Shown here piece after piece: positions 10,301 to 30,858 of a stretch of DNA of 64,000 nt (the stretch's first letter is position 1; every line of letters begins with the position of its first letter). The position numbers and the translations under genes are program-made. Source of the DNA: Dissophora ornata (taxonomy: Eukaryota; Mortierellomycota; Mortierellomycetes; Mortierellales; Mortierellaceae); assembly GCA_025201705.1 (NCBI GenBank), contig MU616582.1:1-64000 (forward strand). Direction: 5' to 3'. The notes beneath the pieces were generated by a model, which worked only from the letters and a program-made list of their open reading frames with translations, had not been told where the DNA came from and made no database searches.

Positions 10301-13300
10301 TTATTCTCAAGCAACACCAAGAGGACCTCCAATGAATTGCAGGCAACCACTTGGTTCACATCTGTAAGTTCCGCTGGCAAAAGCGTCCGCTCAAGGAACT
10401 GAAGCTTGACGTTCACTTCGGGCCAGAACTCGGGACTCAGGAACTCCCGAAGCAGTTCCACTGCACGATACGGCAAGCCCTTCTTAGGAAGCGGCTCTGG
10501 GAATGCACACGCGAATCGGACGAGAAAACTGATGACGTTCTCACGCAGACCCAAGTTTGGCGTGTACGACGTTGTGGCGGAGGTCGTAGCCGCGGTGGAG
10601 ACAGCCGCGGGTGCGGTTGCTGTCTCACTATTTGAAGGTGGATCCACCTCCATAGCACTCTTGGCCTCTGCAATGCGACGGCGCTCCCATTTGAGAATCA
10701 GTTCGGCGAGGTTAATGGTCAGAGTCCTACTGTCCATGCCGGAGTTTTGGACAAGACCCAATTTGGACAAAGTTGTGACGATCTGCGGGAGGAAGTGTTC
10801 TCGGCTCTCGTAAAAGAGGTCGGGATGACGGACGAGCAACTGGTAAACATTCATCAGCTGCGATCCGCTGTGACCATCCTCTACAAGGACTCGTTGCGTC
10901 CAACGCGCCCACGTCGGGTTCCTGGGAGAGTCGGCAGTCATCACGATTCTCTTTGGCAACACCGGTGCAACAATATCCAAGGCCTGCTTTACTAAAGCCT
11001 TCGCTTCCGATTGGTGAGCCCTGAGAAGCGCAACATAAATCTGGATGATGATCTTACTGGGGGTGTCGTAGGCGGCAATGAATCGAGCGATTAGGACGTA
11101 TGCAGCTTGCTTTCCGGTGATATCGTCCAGCTTGAGGTAATTCCAGCCAAAAATAATAATATCCTTCCTAGCATCAGCAATGAGATCTGACGCGAACTGC
11201 AAGATGAGTGACGTCATCTGGAGAAGCTCAATCCTCAGCGCATCATCCGATACATCGTCTGGGTTCTCGCTCATCAGTGGCTGCCAGATCTTGGAGTGAA
11301 TCTCAGTAATCATGGCGTGATCAATAACGGCAAGGTAGTCAGAAGGACCGCGTGTGAACGCGACTAGTAGCATGGGATTGACGATGACGCGGAGAGATTG
11401 CATCTTGACGCTTTGAGAGACCTCTCTATCCTGGAACATGACGAGGAGGTGCTCAAGGATGGCACGCTTTCTCGCAGCGGGCGCCTTCATGGCGATCTCT
11501 TCAATGTAGAACATCTTGAGAAAGCTGAAGTCGATCACTGTCTCCTGAGTAAAGATGCTGACCATCTCGAAAATGACCTCGATATCGTCCTGGTTGTGCT
11601 TGAGGTACAGAATAAAGGCTTCTATCAAGTACTGCGATTCACGCAGTCTCGCCAACGACAGAGAGTCCTCATTTTGAAGGCGCTCTAATCGACCAGGTGC
11701 ACGCCACATTGTCAAAAGTGCATCCAGTACGGGTCGATTGGTGGGGATGAAATCCGGATTGAACTTGGAAATGGCTCGAGTGATTGTCAGCCCGTGGAAC
11801 TGGACAGCAGGATCGGCGTCAGCAAACGTCTTCTTTATCAGCTTGTCTGGATTGCGAACGATCTCCGCTCGCAGTGGGGCCGCGAATTCTGTTGACAACA
11901 GATCGACAAACAATCGGCTGTGTCGCTCTTTCGTCAAGCGGTCCAGGAAGTAGTCCACAGCTTCGTCGCTGTATCGGTTCAGGAACTTGAGGAGCGAATG
12001 TCTGAAAGGGCTAGACATGGCGCGGCGTAAATGACTCTCCATCTCGAGGACGACCGTCACCAGTTCATCCAAAAAGATGTTGGCTGCCTGCGGTAGCAAG
12101 CAAAACACGTTCAGAATGCCGACGATGATTCTGATCTCTTGGTTCTCACTCAAGGGTTTGCCCGCACATTCTTGCAACATAGTTGGCTCGGCCCACTGTC
12201 GCAGGTGATCCAAGAGCTTCTTTCCTATCTCGACCTTGAAATAGTTTGTCAATAGCTCCAGCAACCGCGCCAACCCCTCAAGGCCAGCGACAGTCAAGCG
12301 CTTGTAATCGGACAGATTCATCAGGATCGGTCGGAGGCCAGCTTGTAGGAGATCGCGAGGCAGCTTGTGCTGCTGTGCTAGAACTTGCTTCAAGCCCTTA
12401 TTTGCGACCTCAACTACTTCAGAAGATTTGCTGTACAACGACTTGAAGAATACAGAGATGATGCGCTGTCTCGTGGTGCTCTGCTTGGGAGAGCAAAAGT
12501 CATTGCAGGCCATGGCCGCTGAGAGTAACTTAATGCAGACGATCCGCAAATTGATGAGCGATGATGCGTTCTTGTACTGCGATGTCCTCGGAACTAAAGC
12601 TTGATCTTCAGCATCCGCAAGAGCGAGGGCCTCATGCAGCAACCTGACAAGTTCGTCGTTAAACTCCAGGAAGGGCGGACGCAGTGACAGGCAGAAAGTG
12701 ATGGCATCAATGTGGCCAATTTGCATGGCGAACGGAAGCGCACGCAATGGTTTTGCAAAGATAGGCGACAAGAGTCGATCGCGCACTGGTGCCAGTAGTT
12801 CCGTCACATCATTCCCAGTAAGATCAGCGAGTAATTGGAAAGACGACTGGATGGTCTCTCGCACTGAACTGTTTGAGTTTGAAAGTTCCGAGATCAAGAG
12901 TCCGATCAAGCTATTGAACTTGGCCTGTCGATCTGCCGACTCCACGTTCTCTTCAGGGCGGTTGCAGACCTTGAGGACATGTGACAATGTCTGTGTGGCA
13001 TCCTCCACGTTTCCGGTTGCCAACTCCGGCGACATGTCCTTGAGGATGTAGAGCAATGCCTTGACAAACTCGAGCTCGTGATCTAGCATCCACTTTGCAC
13101 CCATGTCCAACTGTGAGCACATAATGGAGATACCAAAGCAACCGCCGCTCTTACGGTACCACTCTTGCTTGTAGCAACTCGAAGAAAATCTTGTTGCGAA
13201 TAAATGGAAAACTGGCAACTGGAAGAGCACCTCCTTGCTCGATGTGATCGTAGTACATGTCTCGTGCAGTAGCTGCAATGAAGACTCGGCCAATTTCCTT

Positions 13301-22212: not shown

Positions 22213-22532
22213 AGTGAGTGGTTAAAACAGGATCATAACAGGCGCACGCGTACCACAAGTTTCATTGATGCATAAATATCAAACAGAGGGGCCAATGACG
22301 CCTTCCCGGCACATGCCATAGGAAGCCCTAAGAAGACCATCGCTGTTGCGGTCACTTCCCGGTCGGCAAACCAGAAGTCCGAAAGGACTCGTTAAATCTG
22401 CTAGAGCTAAAGAAGTGCGAAAGGATTGTTGAACGCACCTGAAAGGGGGACTGGGGCTAGGAACGAGAGCTTGATTCTGGTCCATGGAATTCTGTAATAT
22501 ATACGATTTACTAGACAATCTAAACGTCGAAT
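22213..22532. other. Left flank of the Mutator-like element
   Basis: No supported gene. Ordinary sequence leading to the 9-bp target duplication. Confidence 0.5.
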
Positions 22533-22541
22533 TCCAACCAT
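22533..22541. repeat. Target site duplication, left copy (TCCAACCAT)
   Basis: Nine bases TCCAACCAT directly before the left terminal inverted repeat. The identical 9-mer directly follows the right terminal repeat at 29874-29882. Nine bp is the length typical of the Mutator superfamily. Confidence 0.93.
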
Positions 22542-22568
22542 GAAAACAGCACAATTTCGGCTCAAATT
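22542..22568 (+). repeat. Left terminal inverted repeat
   Basis: Twenty-seven bases ending ...CGGCTCAAATT. They match the reverse complement of 29848-29873 except for one extra A in the A-run near the outer end. The outermost base is G, as in many MULE termini. Confidence 0.93.
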
Positions 22569-22671
22569 CGCTGATTGGTCCAAATTTCCTTCTTTCGCCG
22601 AACGCCACCAACCCATAAATGGAAAGTCAATCGACTCATTTGATCTTGCTGGTCTTTCTAAAAAAAATTGT

Positions 22672-25371
22672 TTATTGACACCTGCGCCCAGCTCCAGCTA
22701 CATCAACCTGTACGTCTCGCACAGCATTCTTCAGCCCCACCACCGCGCTTTGGAAGTACTGCAATGTGCATCGTCTTTTTTTGCCATTCCTCACAACATC
22801 AATCAGTGCCTTACAAGCAACCAACATCTCGCGCTCGCATTCCTGAAAAGCCTCAGCAATTTCCTCCTCTCTCGCTCTTTTTTGTGCTTCTTGGTGTTCA
22901 GCTCTCGTTGCCTGCAGCTGGAGCACCAAATGCGGCGAAAGAGTGCTTTCAATGGGAGGCCCGAAATCTTGATCGATGCCAATCGCTTCCTGGGGTTCTT
23001 GTGGCTCTTGGGGCAGTACAGGATCGCCGCCATATTTAATTTCCAGGTCAATGTAGACCCTTGGTACCAAATACATATGCTTGCATGGCAACTTGTGTTG
23101 GACGTAATCCTCGCACGAACAAGAACGAAGAAGGACCCTATTCATGTCCACAGAAACAGAGTACTCCGTGCCCGGTTGGGTAAACGACTTCACCAAAAAC
23201 TATGGTGATGAAAAGCTATTAGAGCGATATTCATATTGTGTATGGTAGTCAAAGATACTATCCGCAAATGGGCTCGCACCTTTCTTTCATCCATCCTCTC
23301 TGTGATCATGTTTCTTGCTGTGTCGAAATCCAACGCCATCGCCTTCGCTCTTCTCTTCCTGTCATATTCCGAGAGTTGTAGAGGTTGTAGTCCCTGTCTA
23401 ATCTTGTAGTAGATGACTCTGAAGTCTGTGTTGGTGACTCCTTGCAGAAGGTAAATTAGGAAATCTGCACGCACATTGCGTTCACTCCCCAGATGGTGCT
23501 TCTTCAGAGTCTTGTGCCAGCTCTCTATGAGATTGTTGGTGTCGACATGCTGGTAGTCCTGTTAGATAGTGATATTATAACAGATAAAGAGTTATTAATA
23601 TGAGTGAGCGGGATTGCTTTTTTTTTTTTTTTTCTTTTTGAAAGGGGGGTTTTTTTCCAAAGCCTTTATCACCTCACCTGTCTCACAAAGGTAGCCCATT
23701 TTGGGATCTTTTCCGCTGTCATCCAGTTCTTCTCGATATAGGTGATAACGGAGCAGGCTTGTGGGAATTTGTTCTTGAAGGCATTCCACAAAGTCGTCAA
23801 TTTCTCCTGAGACGATGCAGCTCGCACCTTATTCAAATCAGGTCGCATGGCGTCACCATCTTTCGCCTACAGAGCATAGCAAGCACGTTAATACAAAATC
23901 ATGTACACTGGTGACATGTTCCTTGACTTCACTTACCGAACATTTTTTCAACCTCTTCTCCCAATTTTGTCCCACATGGAAAAGGCAGTAGTAGATAGCT
24001 GCATTAGGGAACACTTGCTTTAGAGCTTCAGACTCCACCACAGAACAATCCACCATGAATTTCGACATCTTAAGCCCACAGTCATTCTTGAGCCAGGTCA
24101 ACCATATCCTGAGGATGTCGCTGTCATTGAAAAAGTCGCTTCAGTCAACTGAATGTGTTGCGATGTTGCGATTTCAGCACATAATCACATGCCACCTACG
24201 TTGACTCTGAGTTGCAGATCATATACGCAATGGGTATGCCTTTCTGCACATTCCGATCCTTGACAAGAATCGTGAACAGAAAAGAGGATGTATACGCCTG
24301 TACTGTGTCCCCACCTGGCTTCAGGGACTTGACAGTCTTGTGCGTTGAATCAATGCATGCTATGGTGTCATTGTCTTTCATAATCTGTTAAACAATAGGA
24401 ATGAATATGGATATTAGAAGACGCGAGGAACTGAAGGACGTGTCTTACGCGAAATTTTTACCTTCAACTGAAATGAAGTACTCCAAGCAATCAAAAATCT
24501 GTTTGGCGAGTCACCGACACCATTCAGGAACTTTCCCTTGCCACCATCTTGATGAATCGTTGTAATCCAAAGCTTCACGCTGTCTGTAATGTCGCTAGCC
24601 TTTTGGGATACCTTCTTGCGCTGACGATATATAGCTCCGCGAACATCATTGTAGGTTATAAGCATGCCTGGAGGAGCCGTTTCATCTCGTTCTAGCTATA
24701 ATATTGAGATCTTAGTCATCATGTCATGGAGAGACTCAACCATGTGCAATGATTTTCAATGAAAGACACAATAACACAATAGGTACCGATTGAAGAAGTT
24801 CCTCACTTGGCCGCAGCTTTTTTTTTATTCCTTTCCAGTCAAGGCCTTCTTTGACCTTTGCTTTCATCCATTCGATCTCGTTGGTGCTCAATGGGAGAAG
24901 TGCCCTGGTTTTCACCGAGTCGTCATGATTGTGGCGCCAATGGTACTCCACAATCACTTTGTCGTCGCCCACAGGTTTTTGAATCCTGATGTTCGCGTCG
25001 CAACTGGTACCAACAGAGCCACGGCCAATAATTAAGGCTTTACCGGGACGCTGACGCCTGCATGCAAACTTGAAAGACCAGTCAAATCTACGAGGTTTGC
25101 CCCTACCACTAGAGGGTCTCCCATAAACTGGAAGTTCATCATCTGGGCCCCTGTTGAACAAGACTTCGCGAGCATTCCGCTCTGGACAAAGTTCCCATTG
25201 AAATGCGACTCTTTCTTGACCCCAAAATACTCGAAATTCATCAGTGGTGAAACAAGCATTAAAGACATCTGGCGAGTCGCGATTCCTTGGGAAAGGATGA
25301 CGCTCGACAGGTGCAAGAGGGTCAAATTCTGTGGGAGATAGAAGCACATCCTTGACTTTCAAAGGGGTCAT
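22672..25371 (-). CDS. Mutator-like (MULE) transposase with SWIM zinc finger
   Basis: Seven exons on the minus strand, 24787-25371, 24462-24695, 24200-24384, 23937-24120, 23678-23866, 23280-23558 and 22672-23199, join in frame to about 727 residues. Exon 1 resembles the N-terminal DNA-binding region of FAR1/MULE transposases (DWSFKFACRRQRPGK ... VEYHWRHNHDD). The DDE-type core shows IACIDSTHKTVKSL (first Asp), KFMVDCSVVESEALKQVFP and CLFHVGQNWEKRLKKC (second Asp region), and NNLIESWHKTLKKHH (candidate Glu). Exon 7 holds a SWIM finger, CSCEDYVQHKLPCKH. The start is the only in-frame ATG before the conserved region. No stop or frameshift was seen, so it may still be active. It presumably acts on the 26/27-bp terminal repeats of its own element. 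Confidence 0.92.
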
Positions 25372-25843
25372 GGTTGATGGGAGACAAGAGAAACAGGGAT
25401 TCAAAGAAAGGTGTTAATACCCACTTGAGAGGAGCGGGTGTGCATAATTTCCCTTGCTGGAAAAATTGCGCCATGCTCTGGAAAAATTATGTTCATGTGC
25501 ACGGTTGCATTTTTTTTTCTTTTTGGTTTTGTGCAACGTGGGTCAGTATGTGTGCACAGTGCAGCGAATATATCCCATGACCCTGGAGGTCCTTGTTAGT
25601 CAAAAAAAATACAACCGTGCACATAAACAAAAAAAAAGAAAAAGTCCAAAGCGAGAGGAAATAATAGGCACAGACCTCGCAGAAGCATGTTCAAAAAAAA
25701 AATCAAGAGTATTTCTTCTTCTTCCCACTCGCCTATTCCTCGTCTTCACTCCGTCTTTCCCTTCTTCCTCTGCAACATAGTCCACCCATTTCTCCATATC
25801 TCCATCTTTACCATCTTCTTCATTTACCTCGCGAGCGTCAGCA
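25372..25843. promoter_or_regulatory. Shared divergent promoter of the transposase and XPG-Fanzor genes
   Basis: 472 bp between two start codons facing away from each other. It contains a long imperfect inverted repeat (25490-25518 and 25602-25629), several GTGCAC/GTGCA motifs between the arms, and a pyrimidine-rich leader before the Fanzor ATG (25720-25840). Coordinated expression of the two genes is an inference from this symmetry. Confidence 0.6.
25490..25629. repeat. Imperfect inverted repeat centred between the two element genes
   Basis: Left arm 25490-25518 and right arm 25602-25629. Read toward each other they share CAACCGTGCACAT, extended outward to AACA and inward to an A/T run. I count two G/A mismatches over 21 bases plus an 8-base homopolymer. 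The spacer is 83 bp. Each arm contains the palindrome GTGCAC. Confidence 0.85.
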
Positions 25844-28800
25844 ATGGGCATCGTGGGCCTATGGTCCTTCCTTCAAAAAGTTGGATACGATGCTGCTGTC
25901 TGCTCTCAGTTTCCTCAAGTTTCCCAGCCCAACAACTGCTTTTCAGAGCCTACTCTTCGAGTCGACATTCTATCATCATTTTATCCTTCAATTCGTCATT
26001 CCTACACAACTCATCCCTTGCATGACGCTCACGAAGTCCTCGAACGAGTTATATCGAAGTCTGGAGTCCCAAAGAGCGCAGTTCTTTATCTGGATGGCTT
26101 CTCGCCGAATGAGAAACGAGGGACCTGAGAACAGCGTCGTGCCCATGCTCTAAAGCGTGCTCACGAATGCATTGGTGACCTGGAAGAACGCATGATGGAC
26201 GAACGTAGAGTACGAAAACGCCACTTCATTAACTTGAACAAGCACATCAAGGTGGCCTTCTACTGGTCCACGGACTCTCGCAGAGCTTTTGCTCAATACA
26301 TGCGCATCATGGGGTGGGATGTCAAAGAATGCCCCACAGAAGCAGATATAGCGATTGCCCAGGACTCCCGACCCTACGATGTTGTATTGTCTGCCGACAG
26401 CGACATGCTTGCCTATGACACCGTAACAACCATTTGGAGACCCTCTTCAAGAGGCAGATACCTGATATACGACCTTGCAAGTGTGTTGAGGAGTCTTAGC
26501 TTCTCCAGGGTACAACTTACCGTACTGTGCATCGTGTCAAAGAACGACTACACTTCCAACATCGCTTCGCTGGGACCCCACACCAACCACAAGATCGTCA
26601 AATTACTAGAAGGAGCAGGTAAATACTTGCACAACACCAATTATTATTAAGTTTGACACAATTCATTTTCTAATGGACTATTTTTTTTATTTTTTTATTG
26701 ACCACAGATCCAAGAACTATGATCAAGAAATACTTGGCCCACGATGAAGTGTTCCGCAAGGATCGAACCATCAACCACTTCGAGACCTCTTTGAGGGTAT
26801 TCGCACATCGACGAATCTTGAGCATGCGGCAATCCGCGGCTCCTCGTGAGTCAAAACAAGAACCTGCGACCTATAGGGATGTGCTGGAAAGACTGAGACT
26901 TGTTCGCATGCAACTTGACGAGAACAAGAAAAAAAGGTACTACAATGGTCTTCCCTCTCTTTTTTTAATTTTTTTTTTCGGACATTAACCAATGCAACTT
27001 TCACAGCAATCCTGTTAGTACTGAGTGCCAGATGGAGGTTCCACCAAAGCCCTTTAATCGTTACGGCACTGTCGATCGTACCCCTGATCAATTGCCTCGT
27101 CCTCACGATTCTGGAAGAAAGTACAAGTATCGGAAGCGCTTCTCATTCAAGACGCGCTCACGACTTAAAGAGCATGAGCCTCCTGATACAATGAAGAAGT
27201 ACCAATGGAAGCCATGGAAAGTGGTACCTGAGAGTCCCTCCGCTCACTTCACCAACCCTCCCAAAAACAATAACAATAGCAAGCCGCCAAGAACGCCACG
27301 ACCAGTGGAGGACATGGACAAAGCTGCTCTGGTCAGAGCTATGGAATGGGAGCATCCAACGAGGACCCTCAATGTCGGAACTCTCAATGCTAATGTGGTG
27401 CGAGGATTGAGCAAGGAGTTTCAGCAGGCCAAGGCAAACACGTTATTGCCAAAGATCAAGACCTGCCTCCAACAAGCTGTTCGCCATGCATCACTCACCA
27501 AGCGGACCTGCCAGAGAGCTATTGGTCAGTACATTGAGCACCTTTCAACTACCGACATCGATGCAACAGACAGGATCCTGCTCGACAAGCTCTGTCCCCG
27601 CACCTCCAACAATGTGACCGGCAACAACGATTCTGACAAGCCAGATGAAGAACTCAATGAGCATAACGACAAGATTGACACAAAAAATGAGCAGTTGAGC
27701 TTCCTGTTCTCACTTCTCGTGTCCATCTACAACTCCAAGCCTCCTCCCACTTCAGGAACGGGTTCCCATGTCCTTCGGTTCATTGAGAAAGCCAAGGACT
27801 TTTTGCCAACCATGAAAAATGACGGAACGAAGATGCTCTATCCAGGGTCCTCTATACTGCGATCCACTGCTACACAGCTTTCGGTCGAGTTAAGGAAGCA
27901 CTACAAGAATGGCTCGAAAGATCTTTGTGAGAAGGTACTAATATGAATCTTCAACTGGCGCAATCGTTTTTTCTTCTTCTATAAGTTTGCCAAGGACGGT
28001 CTTACAAACATCGGCCATCTTTTCAAAATAGGCCGAGGCTCTCAAGAAAAAGGGTCTTTTGCCTGCAGATGTAGCGATCAGCATTGACCACGACATTTCA
28101 GCAATTGAGAACTTTATTCATCTAAACAAGGTCTGCATGAGCCGTCGAAGGTTGGCTCCAATGTCTTCCTTTGAAGACAGCTTCATATCTCTTTCGGAAC
28201 TAGAGTTGACCAGGCTCTTTTGGCAAGACGAGATCTTGAAACAACAACTGCAAGACTATGCCAGTCCTGACTTCCCAAACGCTGAGAACATCTCCCAGAC
28301 AGACGTTGCGTATTGGCTCTCAAAGAAGGAACCGGGACATCTTATCACCAAGCTGGTCACTGACGTTGGAGGCTACCAACCGGAGGAGCGGAAGAGACTC
28401 AAGGAGTACAGGGCGAAGACATCTGTGATGCCATTGGACAAGATGAAGCAGCACATTAGAACCATTCGTGATGACTCCTTCGAACCCATGTCTTACAAAG
28501 AGCGCGACTATGTGGTACGTGGATCGATTCGGACAGATGGGTTTCGGCTACAGCTGACTGCATTCAAGCTGAACGAACTTAATGCGGTTAAGTACAGACG
28601 ACTTCCTGTGGAAAAACTACCTCCTCGCATCACTTCAACTCTCGCTGGAACGGACTATTTCTTGACCGAGATTAGGAATATAGTGAAGACAAAGCAGGAT
28701 GTCTCTGACCTTTGGGGATGTGATCCCGAACGAATCAAGGTTTTGGGTCTAGATCTTGGACAAGCATTTGTAATAGGAGCGAGCGCCTTGCTGCCTAATA

Positions 28801-29752
28801 GTGACATAGGAAAGGGGGCAAATGCTGTGGTCAAAGAAAAGCCTGAAGAGAAAGTGGCCACCAAGTTTTACAACCTGGCTGTCAAGCAGAAGGCAGTGTA
28901 TCAGCCCACACTGAAACTTCGACGCTGGATGGAGCAAAGGAAGGACAATGCAATCTACAATTCAGCATCTATCAGCAGCATCGAGACCAATTTGCCCCAC
29001 CTTCGCGGCACTGGAGCAAGCATTAAAGAATACGTTAACAAGCTCAAAGATGTTGAGGCGCACCTCGACTCCTTCTACAACAGCAACATGGTCCTCAAGA
29101 AACACAGATGGAACGCGAGAAAGGCACGAGATGAGGAGTACTTGCAGATTGCCAACCGTCTCTTCAAGTTAGTCGGAGGATCGATTGGCGCCAAGAGAAA
29201 AGACAGTAACAAAGTCGTGATCGGTGTGGGTCTTGGAAAGTTTTCTACAAAGACCAGACTGTCTTCTCTGCACGAGTCGTTCCAATCGTACTTTGTTCAA
29301 AAGGTAAGAGAGCATTTTTGTGTCTTCGCGGCCCCATGGTCTATTTTTCTAACATCAGGACTAATATCGCTTCCCTACAATTAACTGCCTCTCTCAAGGC
29401 TAGATCCCTGGGTTACATTGTCGTAGGTGTGAATGAATATTACACCTCGAAAAAGTGTCCGGTCTGCGAGGATTTTGTTGGTCAGGTCGACCTGCGCCGC
29501 CTATATTGTTCGAAGTGCAAGACGTACATTCATTGCGATGTCATGGCCGGGCACAACATCTGCAATGCAGTTCAAGGACATCTACGTGACCAACAGAGGC
29601 CAGCTTATCTCCAGCCAAAGGATGCGAATGGGGATTACCCATGGATGAGCTCTCACATGGTGGGCGGCAGTATTGAGTACGGTGGGGTCAAGCGACAAGC
29701 ACCGTCTGACTCGATGGACAATCCACGCCTCAAGAGACCACACGCAGAGTAG
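25844..29752 (+). CDS. XPG/FEN1-like nuclease fused to a Fanzor RNA-guided nuclease (one in-frame TGA)
   Basis: Five exons, 25844-26618, 26708-26936, 27007-27934, 28032-29303 and 29399-29752, give 1186 codons. Residues 1-260 form an XPG-type flap-nuclease fold: MGIVGLWSFLQKVGYD at the start, LYLDGFSPNEKRGT (N-domain Asp), PTEADIAIA and VVLSADSDMLAYD (I-domain acids), and a helix-hairpin segment SKNDYTSNIASLGP. After a basic linker and helical region comes a Fanzor/TnpB-type RuvC: KVLGLDLGQA (Asp, about 885), VVGVNEYYTSKKCPVC (Glu about 1081 in the alternative Fanzor position), a CPVC...CSKC zinc ribbon, then HCDVMAGHNI (Asp about 1115). Codon 95 (26126-26128) is TGA, so the full fusion needs readthrough, correction of the assembly, or an inactive allele; an ATG at 26192 could start a shorter protein keeping the I-domain acids. 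Fanzors are RNA-guided DNA nucleases. Cooperation of the two nuclease domains is inferred. Confidence 0.85.
26126..26128 (+). other. In-frame TGA inside the XPG domain
   Basis: The frame reads ...NEKRGT, TGA, EQRRAHALKRAHE..., with clear family-like sequence on both sides and no plausible intron to remove it. In FEN1/XPG proteins the N-domain Asp-Gly is followed by a K..T...R..R pattern that runs across this site. A CGA to TGA transition (CpG decay) is the simplest origin. Confidence 0.85.
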
Positions 29753-29847
29753 ACAATATTATATTTTAGACATTTGTGTGTCAGCAAACACATAGTCTTA
29801 GTTTAGATGCAGCTAGTTCGTGCTTGGATTTGTCACTTCTGTGACGT
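29753..29847 (+). ncRNA. Candidate Fanzor guide-RNA (omega/fRNA) scaffold region
   Basis: In known Fanzor and TnpB loci the guide RNA scaffold lies at the 3' end of the nuclease gene and runs to the transposon end. Here only 95 bp separate the stop codon from the right terminal repeat. The segment contains a loose GTGT...ACAC stem near 29775-29793 and a perfect GTCAC-TTCT-GTGAC hairpin at 29832-29845, two bases inside the terminal repeat. Position is the main argument; the RNA itself is inferred. Confidence 0.4.
29832..29845. repeat. Perfect hairpin beside the right terminal repeat
   Basis: GTCAC (29832-29836), loop TTCT, GTGAC (29841-29845). It ends two bases before the right terminal inverted repeat. 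Confidence 0.8.
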
Positions 29848-29873
29848 AATTTGAGCCGAAATTGTGCTGTTTC
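29848..29873 (-). repeat. Right terminal inverted repeat
   Basis: Twenty-six bases, the reverse complement of the left terminal repeat (one A shorter). Directly followed by the target duplication. Confidence 0.93.
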
Positions 29874-29882
29874 TCCAACCAT
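29874..29882. repeat. Target site duplication, right copy (TCCAACCAT)
   Basis: Identical to 22533-22541. It defines the right boundary of the inserted element. Confidence 0.93.
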
Positions 29883-30011: not shown

Positions 30012-30105
30012 ATGGCCCTCCTCACAACCGTCGCAGGATTCTCCACCTTTGGCTTGGCCGTTCGTGGCGTCGCACTCACCATCCAACGCCGCCCCATCAC
30101 CACTG
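30012..30105 (+). CDS. First exon of a small gene cut off by the assembly gap
   Basis: ATG after a pyrimidine-rich leader, then 31 codons reading MALLTTVAGFSTFGLAVRGV and on to IQRRPITT, ending at a good donor site (G|GTAAGG). The hydrophobic start followed by QRRP suggests a membrane protein. It reminds me weakly of small mitochondrial inner-membrane subunits, but that is not established. The rest lies in or beyond the gap at 30114. The Mutator-like insertion sits 130 bp upstream, within its probable promoter. Confidence 0.55.
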
Positions 30106-30113
30106 GTAAGGAG

Positions 30114-30123
30114 NNNNNNNNNN
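30114..30123. other. Assembly gap (10 N)
   Basis: A run of ten N separates the first exon of a small gene from a second Fanzor fragment. The true gap length is unknown. The contig probably broke because the Fanzor element is repeated in the genome. Confidence 0.98.
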
Positions 30124-30858
30124 AACGAATCAAAGTTTTGGGTCTAGACCTTGGACAAGCATTTGTAATAGGAGCGAGCGCCTTGCTGCCTAATAGTGAC
30201 ATAGGAAAGGGGACAAATGCTGTTGTCAAAGAACGGTCTGAAGAGAAAGTGGCCACCAGGTTTTACAACCTGGCTGTCAAGCAGAAGGCGGTGTATCAGC
30301 CCACACTGAAACTTCGACGCTGGATGGAGCAAAGGAAGGACAAGGCAATCTACAATTCAGCGTCTATCAGCAGCATCGAGACCAATTTGCCCCACCTTCG
30401 CGGTACTGGAGCAAGCATTAAAGAATACGTTGGCAAGCTCAAAGATGTTGAGGCGCACCTCGACTCCTTCTACAACAGCAACATGGTCCTCAAGAAACAC
30501 AGATGGAACGCGAGAAAGGCACGAGATGAGGAGTACTTGCAGATTGCCAATCGTCTCTTCAAGCTAGTCGGAGGATCGATTGGCGCCAAGAGAGAAGACA
30601 GCAACAAAGTCGTAATCGGTGTGGGTCTTGGAAAGTTTTCTACAAAGACCAGACTGTCTTCTCTACACGAGTCGTTCCAATCGTACTTTGTTCAAATAGG
30701 CAAGAGAGCATTTTTGTATCTTCGCGGCCCCATGGTCTATTTATCTAACTTTAGGACTAATATCGCGTATCTACAATTTACTGCCTCTCTTTAGGCTAGA
30801 TCCCTGGGCTACATTGTCGTAGGTGTGAATGAATATTACACCTCGAAAAAGTGTCCGG
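30124..30858 (+). pseudogene. Truncated second Fanzor copy
   Basis: Starts at the gap and aligns with 28729-29463 of the intact copy: the RuvC segment with GLDLGQA, the intron, and exon 5 up to the first zinc-ribbon Cys (TSKKCP). By eye there are about 20 base differences over the first 570 nt (about 96% identity) but only about seven amino-acid changes. The intron donor is altered (AAG|GTAAGA has become ATAGGCAAGA, with one extra base) and its acceptor reads TTTAG. Homology stops abruptly at 30858, before the second zinc pair and catalytic Asp, so this copy cannot code a complete nuclease. Confidence 0.9.

Follow-up and report, generated by a model that had tools for sequence, protein, structure and literature searches.

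We examined a 64,000-nucleotide stretch of the Dissophora ornata genome (contig MU616582.1, positions 1 to 64,000; hereafter the window) and found that positions 22542-29873 are occupied by one real, delimited Mutator-like transposon. It carries, head to head, a MULE transposase gene and a gene in which an XPG/FEN1-like nuclease domain is fused to a Fanzor-like nuclease, and divergent pairs of the same kind recur elsewhere in the genome. On balance, and with some reserve, we favor the interpretation that the element belongs to an autonomous-type Mutator-like lineage of Mortierellaceae that keeps the head-to-head transposase and two-nuclease protein and acts in the manner proposed below. Relative to an earlier sequence-only reading of this DNA, the partnership and the fusion are more solid than could then be known, and the copy in the window is less intact than was implied. 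Coordinates of the features are collected in Table 1.

Table 1. Features of the Mutator-like element in the window (positions count from the first nucleotide of the window)
Feature	Position	Strand	Remarks
Left terminal inverted repeat	22542-22568	+	27 bp
Right terminal inverted repeat	29848-29873	-	26 bp
9-bp target-site duplication TCCAACCAT, left copy	22533-22541		directly outside left end
9-bp target-site duplication TCCAACCAT, right copy	29874-29882		directly outside right end
MULE transposase gene	22672-25371	-	7 exons; stop-free frame of 740 amino acids with MULE and SWIM domains
Transposase exons	25371-24787, 24695-24462, 24384-24200, 24138-23937, 23866-23678, 23558-23259, 23199-22672	-	
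Region between divergent start codons	25372-25843		472 bp; probably a shared promoter
XPG-Fanzor gene	25844-29752	+	5 exons, 1185 codons and stop, one in-frame TGA
XPG-Fanzor exons	25844-26618, 26708-26936, 27007-27934, 28032-29303, 29399-29752	+	
XPG/FEN1/EXO1-like nuclease domain, exon 1	25844-26618	+	seven acidic metal-site positions; fold and profile from relatives
In-frame TGA	26126-26128	+	codon 95; interrupts the XPG domain of the window copy
Fanzor part, exons 4-5	28032-29752	+	TDG, RuvC-I Asp, alternative RuvC-II Glu before C4 zinc finger, RuvC-III Asp
Candidate guide RNA (reRNA/omega RNA) scaffold	29801-29879	+	long predicted hairpin running into the duplication

The element has the terminal inverted repeats, the duplication of about 9 bp and the MULE-type transposase that define Mutator-like transposons. 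Its inverted ends agree perfectly over 25 bp (22544-22568 and 29848-29872), the left end having an additional A, and the 9-bp duplication outside them is also perfect (chance at fixed positions 4^-9, or about 4e-6); the termini and the duplication are thus as the sequence-only reading had described them. When the 31.4-Mb genome was searched with a 23-base core of the inverted repeat, allowing up to 3 mismatches, these two ends were the only matches, and a reversed control gave 0. Some sharing of termini by other copies was seen at the left end: on contig C799 a copy starts at this left terminus, the DNA before it being unrelated, and one on C95 keeps the first 9 bp of the terminus, followed by a deletion and likewise preceded by unrelated DNA. 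The full core occurs here only. Because these copies share the left terminus, or its first 9 bp, next to unrelated flanks, the left boundary is independently supported. No target-site motif was apparent by eye across the three left flanks (window, C799 and C95).

Protein searches of the same genome returned at least 52 XPG, at least 125 Fanzor and at least 99 transposase matches, counted as exon fragments, and clustering of the matches gave 40 XPG clusters and 45 transposase clusters. Ten transposase/XPG pairs lie within 3 kb of each other (on C13, C661, C20, C616, C21, which is the window, C429, C425, C160, C791 and C454), and all ten are head to head. With the window set aside and a chance of 1/4 for each pair, the probability of nine out of nine in this orientation is about 4e-6; one more pair on C20 is tail to tail at 3.18 kb, barely beyond the 3-kb cut. 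Since the protein matches of the nine partner pairs are each only roughly 35-51% (XPG) and 39-66% (transposase) identical to the window genes, the pairing is, judged by this divergence, old. Its recurrence in many old copies makes the combination of transposase and XPG-Fanzor look like a long-kept partnership and not an accident. The co-mobilization of the two genes that had been proposed from the window is therefore upheld by ten pairs in a single orientation, instead of being contradicted by relatives in which the two never travel together.

The transposase itself scores above the Pfam cut-offs for MULE (PF10551, 28.8 bits against 27.6), Transposase_mut (PF00872, 24.8 against 21) and SWIM (27.4 against 19.6). 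Its earlier description as an apparently intact, SWIM-containing MULE transposase stands, as does that of two divergent multi-exon genes between the termini, and all 10 introns in the two gene models are GT...AG. The ratio of nonsynonymous to synonymous substitution rates (dN/dS) is 0.30 against the C275 copy (739 codons) and 0.19 against the C799 copy (546 codons), both of which contain stops. Between the divergent start codons lies an inverted repeat pair (25487-25517 and 25602-25632; 31 nucleotides, 90% complementary). By eye, close homology to the C275 copy stops near this repeat pair, with an apparent remnant of the XPG start beyond it.

For the nuclease, Pfam reports Cas12f1-like_TNB above its cut-off and XPG_I (1.8e-4) below cut-off in the window copy, and the fold and profile of the relatives' XPG regions are those of FEN1, EXO1 and XPG. 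All seven acidic positions of the metal site (FEN1 numbering) are present, with one Glu replaced by Asp; E160 is Asp in all 12 relatives that cover it. The metal-site residues are kept wherever they are covered in relatives 39-51% identical to P0001, an intact relative from Mortierella sp. GBAus27b. The joining of an XPG/FEN1-like domain to a Fanzor, proposed from the sequence alone, is shared by 26 of the 42 relatives, with several genera represented. No homolog from outside Mortierellaceae was among the named matches of searches that need shared 5-residue words and in which 6362 and 8000 candidates were scored.

In the C-terminal part, the alternative RuvC-II glutamate (E1081) is followed by six residues and then the first zinc-finger cysteine (C1088), and is Glu in all 12 covering relatives; a TDG motif (WED) occupies residues 812-814. 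The Bao-Jurka motif D-X(125,275)-[TS][TS]xx-C4 zinc finger-X(5,50)-RD is matched until its last step, where the residue preceding the last RuvC aspartate is C in the window copy (CD) and R in all 12 covering aligned relatives (RD). RuvC-I reads DLG in the window copy and in 13 of the 15 aligned relatives, the other 2 having DGG. The DGG of P0018 and P0020 is a further departure from DPG, which a passage of Yoon et al. (2023, PMC10711439) calls near exclusive in Fanzors. Structural matches to SpuFz (3.2e-5), PpFz (1.8e-4) and GtFz (4.3e-4) came from a model whose Fanzor half is of low confidence. Searched against the PDB with E values up to 1 allowed, the relatives' profile matched no chain bearing the name Fanzor, and its C-terminal part weakly matched LaTranC (0.0012) and Cas_phi3 (0.042). 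We therefore describe the protein, from its motifs, as Fanzor-like and Fanzor1-related and do not claim full Fanzor membership, because DLG or DGG replaces DPG, although the alternative glutamate and TDG are in place.

The sequence-only reading had implied a working nuclease in the window copy, and this was not borne out, as an in-frame TGA lies inside its XPG domain. We considered and rejected two ways in which the TGA might be harmless. It does not appear to be a sense codon, since the transposase frame has no TGA and several XPG exons elsewhere (on C298, C20 and C429, for instance) match stop-free, and no GT-AG intron that would remove it was seen there. A TGA on C425 was also rejected as a shared recoded stop, being the sole stop in the C425 open frame and lying at a different place, near the far end of the match. 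Where the TGA sits, the window copy and a related fragment on contig C663 differ in length by 9 nucleotides, and together these observations mark the TGA as a plain lesion. Because of the TGA, and of CD in place of RD at RuvC-III, the full nuclease is probably not made from this copy now, and the copy would probably depend on others for it; an internal start could still give the Fanzor part. For exon 4, in the Fanzor part, dN/dS was 0.19-0.38 when compared three times against other copies.

The lesion, together with decayed or nested copies at C425, C454, C661 and C799, would be expected if the element were a dead relic, with the two genes chance neighbors in a repeat-rich genome and both fusion and pairing products of nested insertions. 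Against it stand exact ends with a duplication, ten of ten pairs head to head, dN/dS values below 0.4 and a fusion shared by 26 of 42 relatives in several genera, and we regard this explanation as highly improbable.

A candidate guide RNA was sought in the predicted folding of the element. The sequence that starts just past the Fanzor stop and takes in the right copy of the duplication (29760-29882) has a predicted fold of -39.5 kcal/mol (z -4.57, with a second z value for the hairpin of -4.52), and 0 of 200 shuffles were as stable; the right inverted repeat forms the 3' arm of this long hairpin. When the element and its near flanks were scanned on both strands in 618 overlapping segments of 110 nucleotides, the right end, read in the sense of the Fanzor gene, supplied the two best segments, with z -5.1 and -4.6 against -3.5 for the third. 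The antisense of the right-end hairpin had z -2.9, and at the left end segments starting at 22500-22600 ranged from -1.0 to 1.2, with -2.5 for the segment starting at 22475. The apical stem is kept in short right-end fragments on C41, C304 and C68 and lost in one on C299; four fragments in this state of decay carry no weight as covariation of the hairpin. The matches on C41 (L062), C304 (L063) and C68 (L064) are about 38-54 bp long and consist of a right-end block with a GTCAC-loop-GTGAC hairpin, and none of the three contigs has a Fanzor match; they resemble the 'ghost' loci of S. punctatus and are possibly ghost-like guide loci or remnants. Fanzor guide RNAs have been reported at the right end, between the stop codon and the end of the element, in the relevant parts of PMC10432273 and PMC10711439. 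A hairpin at that place, specific in strand and position, lends some indirect support to the RNA-guided cutting of the empty donor site that the sequence-only reading had suggested.

From this anatomy we propose the following mechanism. The transposase would excise and reinsert the element by MULE transposition with a 9-bp stagger. A transcript of the hairpin, its 3' arm formed by the right inverted repeat, would serve as scaffold of the Fanzor guide, and, by continuing past the right end into the flank, it would acquire a guide matching the donor site. After excision, the complex would cut the emptied or homologous site, and the XPG/EXO1-like domain would trim flaps or resect the broken ends in the 5' to 3' direction, so that repair would be led to recopy the element from a sister. 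In this way the guide would be reset at each insertion to match the new donor site, and processing of the cut ends by the XPG domain would allow repair to restore the element; we offer this last reading tentatively, and it may well prove incorrect.

Two other roles for the XPG domain deserve consideration. The XPG-Fanzor protein may be a co-inherited OMEGA-type passenger that helps only through RNA-guided donor cutting, its XPG domain a structural or DNA-binding leftover. Fanzor1s have been found in several transposon superfamilies, according to parts of PMC3627910, and 30 of the 40 XPG clusters have no transposase match inside 3 kb, both in keeping with a passenger. However, the XPG metal-site residues are conserved, where covered, in relatives as distant as 39-51% identity to P0001, and a scaffold alone would need no such residues; we consider the passenger explanation unlikely. 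Slightly less likely still is that the XPG domain serves transposition itself. It would then remove the 5' flaps, or the non-transferred strands, that the MULE transposase leaves on excision or in the 9-bp gap, and the Fanzor part would direct it to the ends by binding the hairpin RNA. The FEN1/EXO1/XPG fold, the inclusion of the right inverted repeat in the hairpin and the strict head-to-head pairing would all suit such a function, but MULEs elsewhere are known to move without a protein of this kind. Moreover, the RuvC acidic residues are conserved as well, which implies cutting by Fanzor and not tethering alone.

Several points nevertheless weigh against the lineage and mechanism that we favor. 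The 0.43 or so pairs expected within 3 kb under uniform placement, compared with 10 observed, is too low an expectation given the clustering of transposable elements; the orientation result is unaffected. In addition to the 30 unpaired XPG clusters, 35 transposase clusters lack a partner inside 3 kb, and copies with only Fanzor or only transposase may be common; contigs are short and copies decayed. RuvC-I lacks the DPG that marks Fanzors, the model is poorly resolved over much of its Fanzor half, with fold matches low in TM-score, and the nuclease gene of the window is interrupted by a stop. The transposase copies used for dN/dS are partly decayed, and one of them (C275; L017 6230-9137) combines a near-complete transposase (alignable over 739 of 741 codons, and with one stop or more) with an XPG-Fanzor gene reduced to a remnant. 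A search of this genome with the joined flanks gave no empty site; only this locus's two flanks matched. The C661 element shows no inverted repeat with a duplication and no clear ends, its contig stopping at 18475 near the transposase end. The best of 630 folding segments in that divergent element does repeat the pattern of the window copy, being on the sense strand about 13 nucleotides past the Fanzor stop (near 10899; z -3.79), but by a small margin over the antisense at the same place (-3.35) and over other places (-3.27 and -3.25).

Two further candidates for complete elements were rejected. The copy on C799 (L015 2353-5764) agrees at its left end, but an internal deletion joins window position 24840 to 27742, with loss of the 5' part of the transposase and of the XPG domain, and its possible right end, a 12-bp inverted match, has no matching duplication. 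After 29.9 kb in the window, only a Fanzor exon fragment was found (30124-30858; 95.5% identical to 28729-29462), beyond a 10-N assembly gap at 30114-30123 that lies 240 bp right of the element and cuts a possible gene starting near 30012; gap and fragment probably reflect a scaffold join beside another copy. C425 and C454 also carry fragments more than 90% identical to the end of the window transposase, which suggests nesting there.

The precedent for Fanzors in Mutator-like elements that the sequence-only reading had named is real: Bao & Jurka (2013, PMC3627910), in the part drawn on here, placed Fanzor1 in MuDR-like elements of Rhizopus, Phycomyces and Mucor that have 9-bp duplications and encode no transposase. 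Like ROr-4, PBl-3 and MCi-4 of that report, the window element comes from an early-diverging fungus and has its Fanzor enclosed by Mutator-type termini and a 9-bp duplication. Unlike these three, which have no MuDR transposase, it encodes a stop-free MULE transposase, and an XPG domain is not mentioned for the MuDR-like Fanzor1 elements in that part of the paper. Excerpts on SpuFz1 (Saito et al. 2023, PMC10432273) and the SfAV Fanzor (Yoon et al. 2023, PMC10711439) describe the same alternative RuvC-II glutamate six residues before the zinc finger, TDG, the zinc finger and a structured RNA between the stop codon and the right end, here predicted only. The window protein differs from both in having DLG (DGG in P0018 and P0020) and not DPG at RuvC-I, an extra N-terminal XPG nuclease and a length of 1185 codons, and the Spu-1 elements, as portrayed in the excerpt from Saito et al., have no transposase inside their ends. 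KolobokP (Kojima & Bao 2022, PMC9587614) likewise pairs a eukaryotic DDE transposon with a separate sequence-specific nuclease, but, from the portion of that paper used, it is a composite element with long direct repeats and a His-Me homing endonuclease. The XPG domain of the window protein shares its fold and seven acidic metal-site positions with XPG/RAD2 nucleases (FEN1, EXO1 and XPG), and unlike them it is fused to a Fanzor and borne by a transposon. A keyword search of the literature found no paper combining Fanzor and XPG, mention in other papers or supplements being possible, and nothing on Fanzor with Mortierella transposons or Mucoromycota.

The element bears on the question of what Fanzors do for eukaryotic transposons. 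It brings together a stop-free transposase, the nuclease gene and a candidate guide RNA within a single delimited unit, an arrangement that recurs in old, diverged copies, and the hypothesis of donor-site cutting is therefore directly testable. A flap nuclease or exonuclease of the repair type, fused to an RNA-guided cutter, would also represent an enzyme of new design with relevance to genome editing, where end processing decides the outcome of repair.

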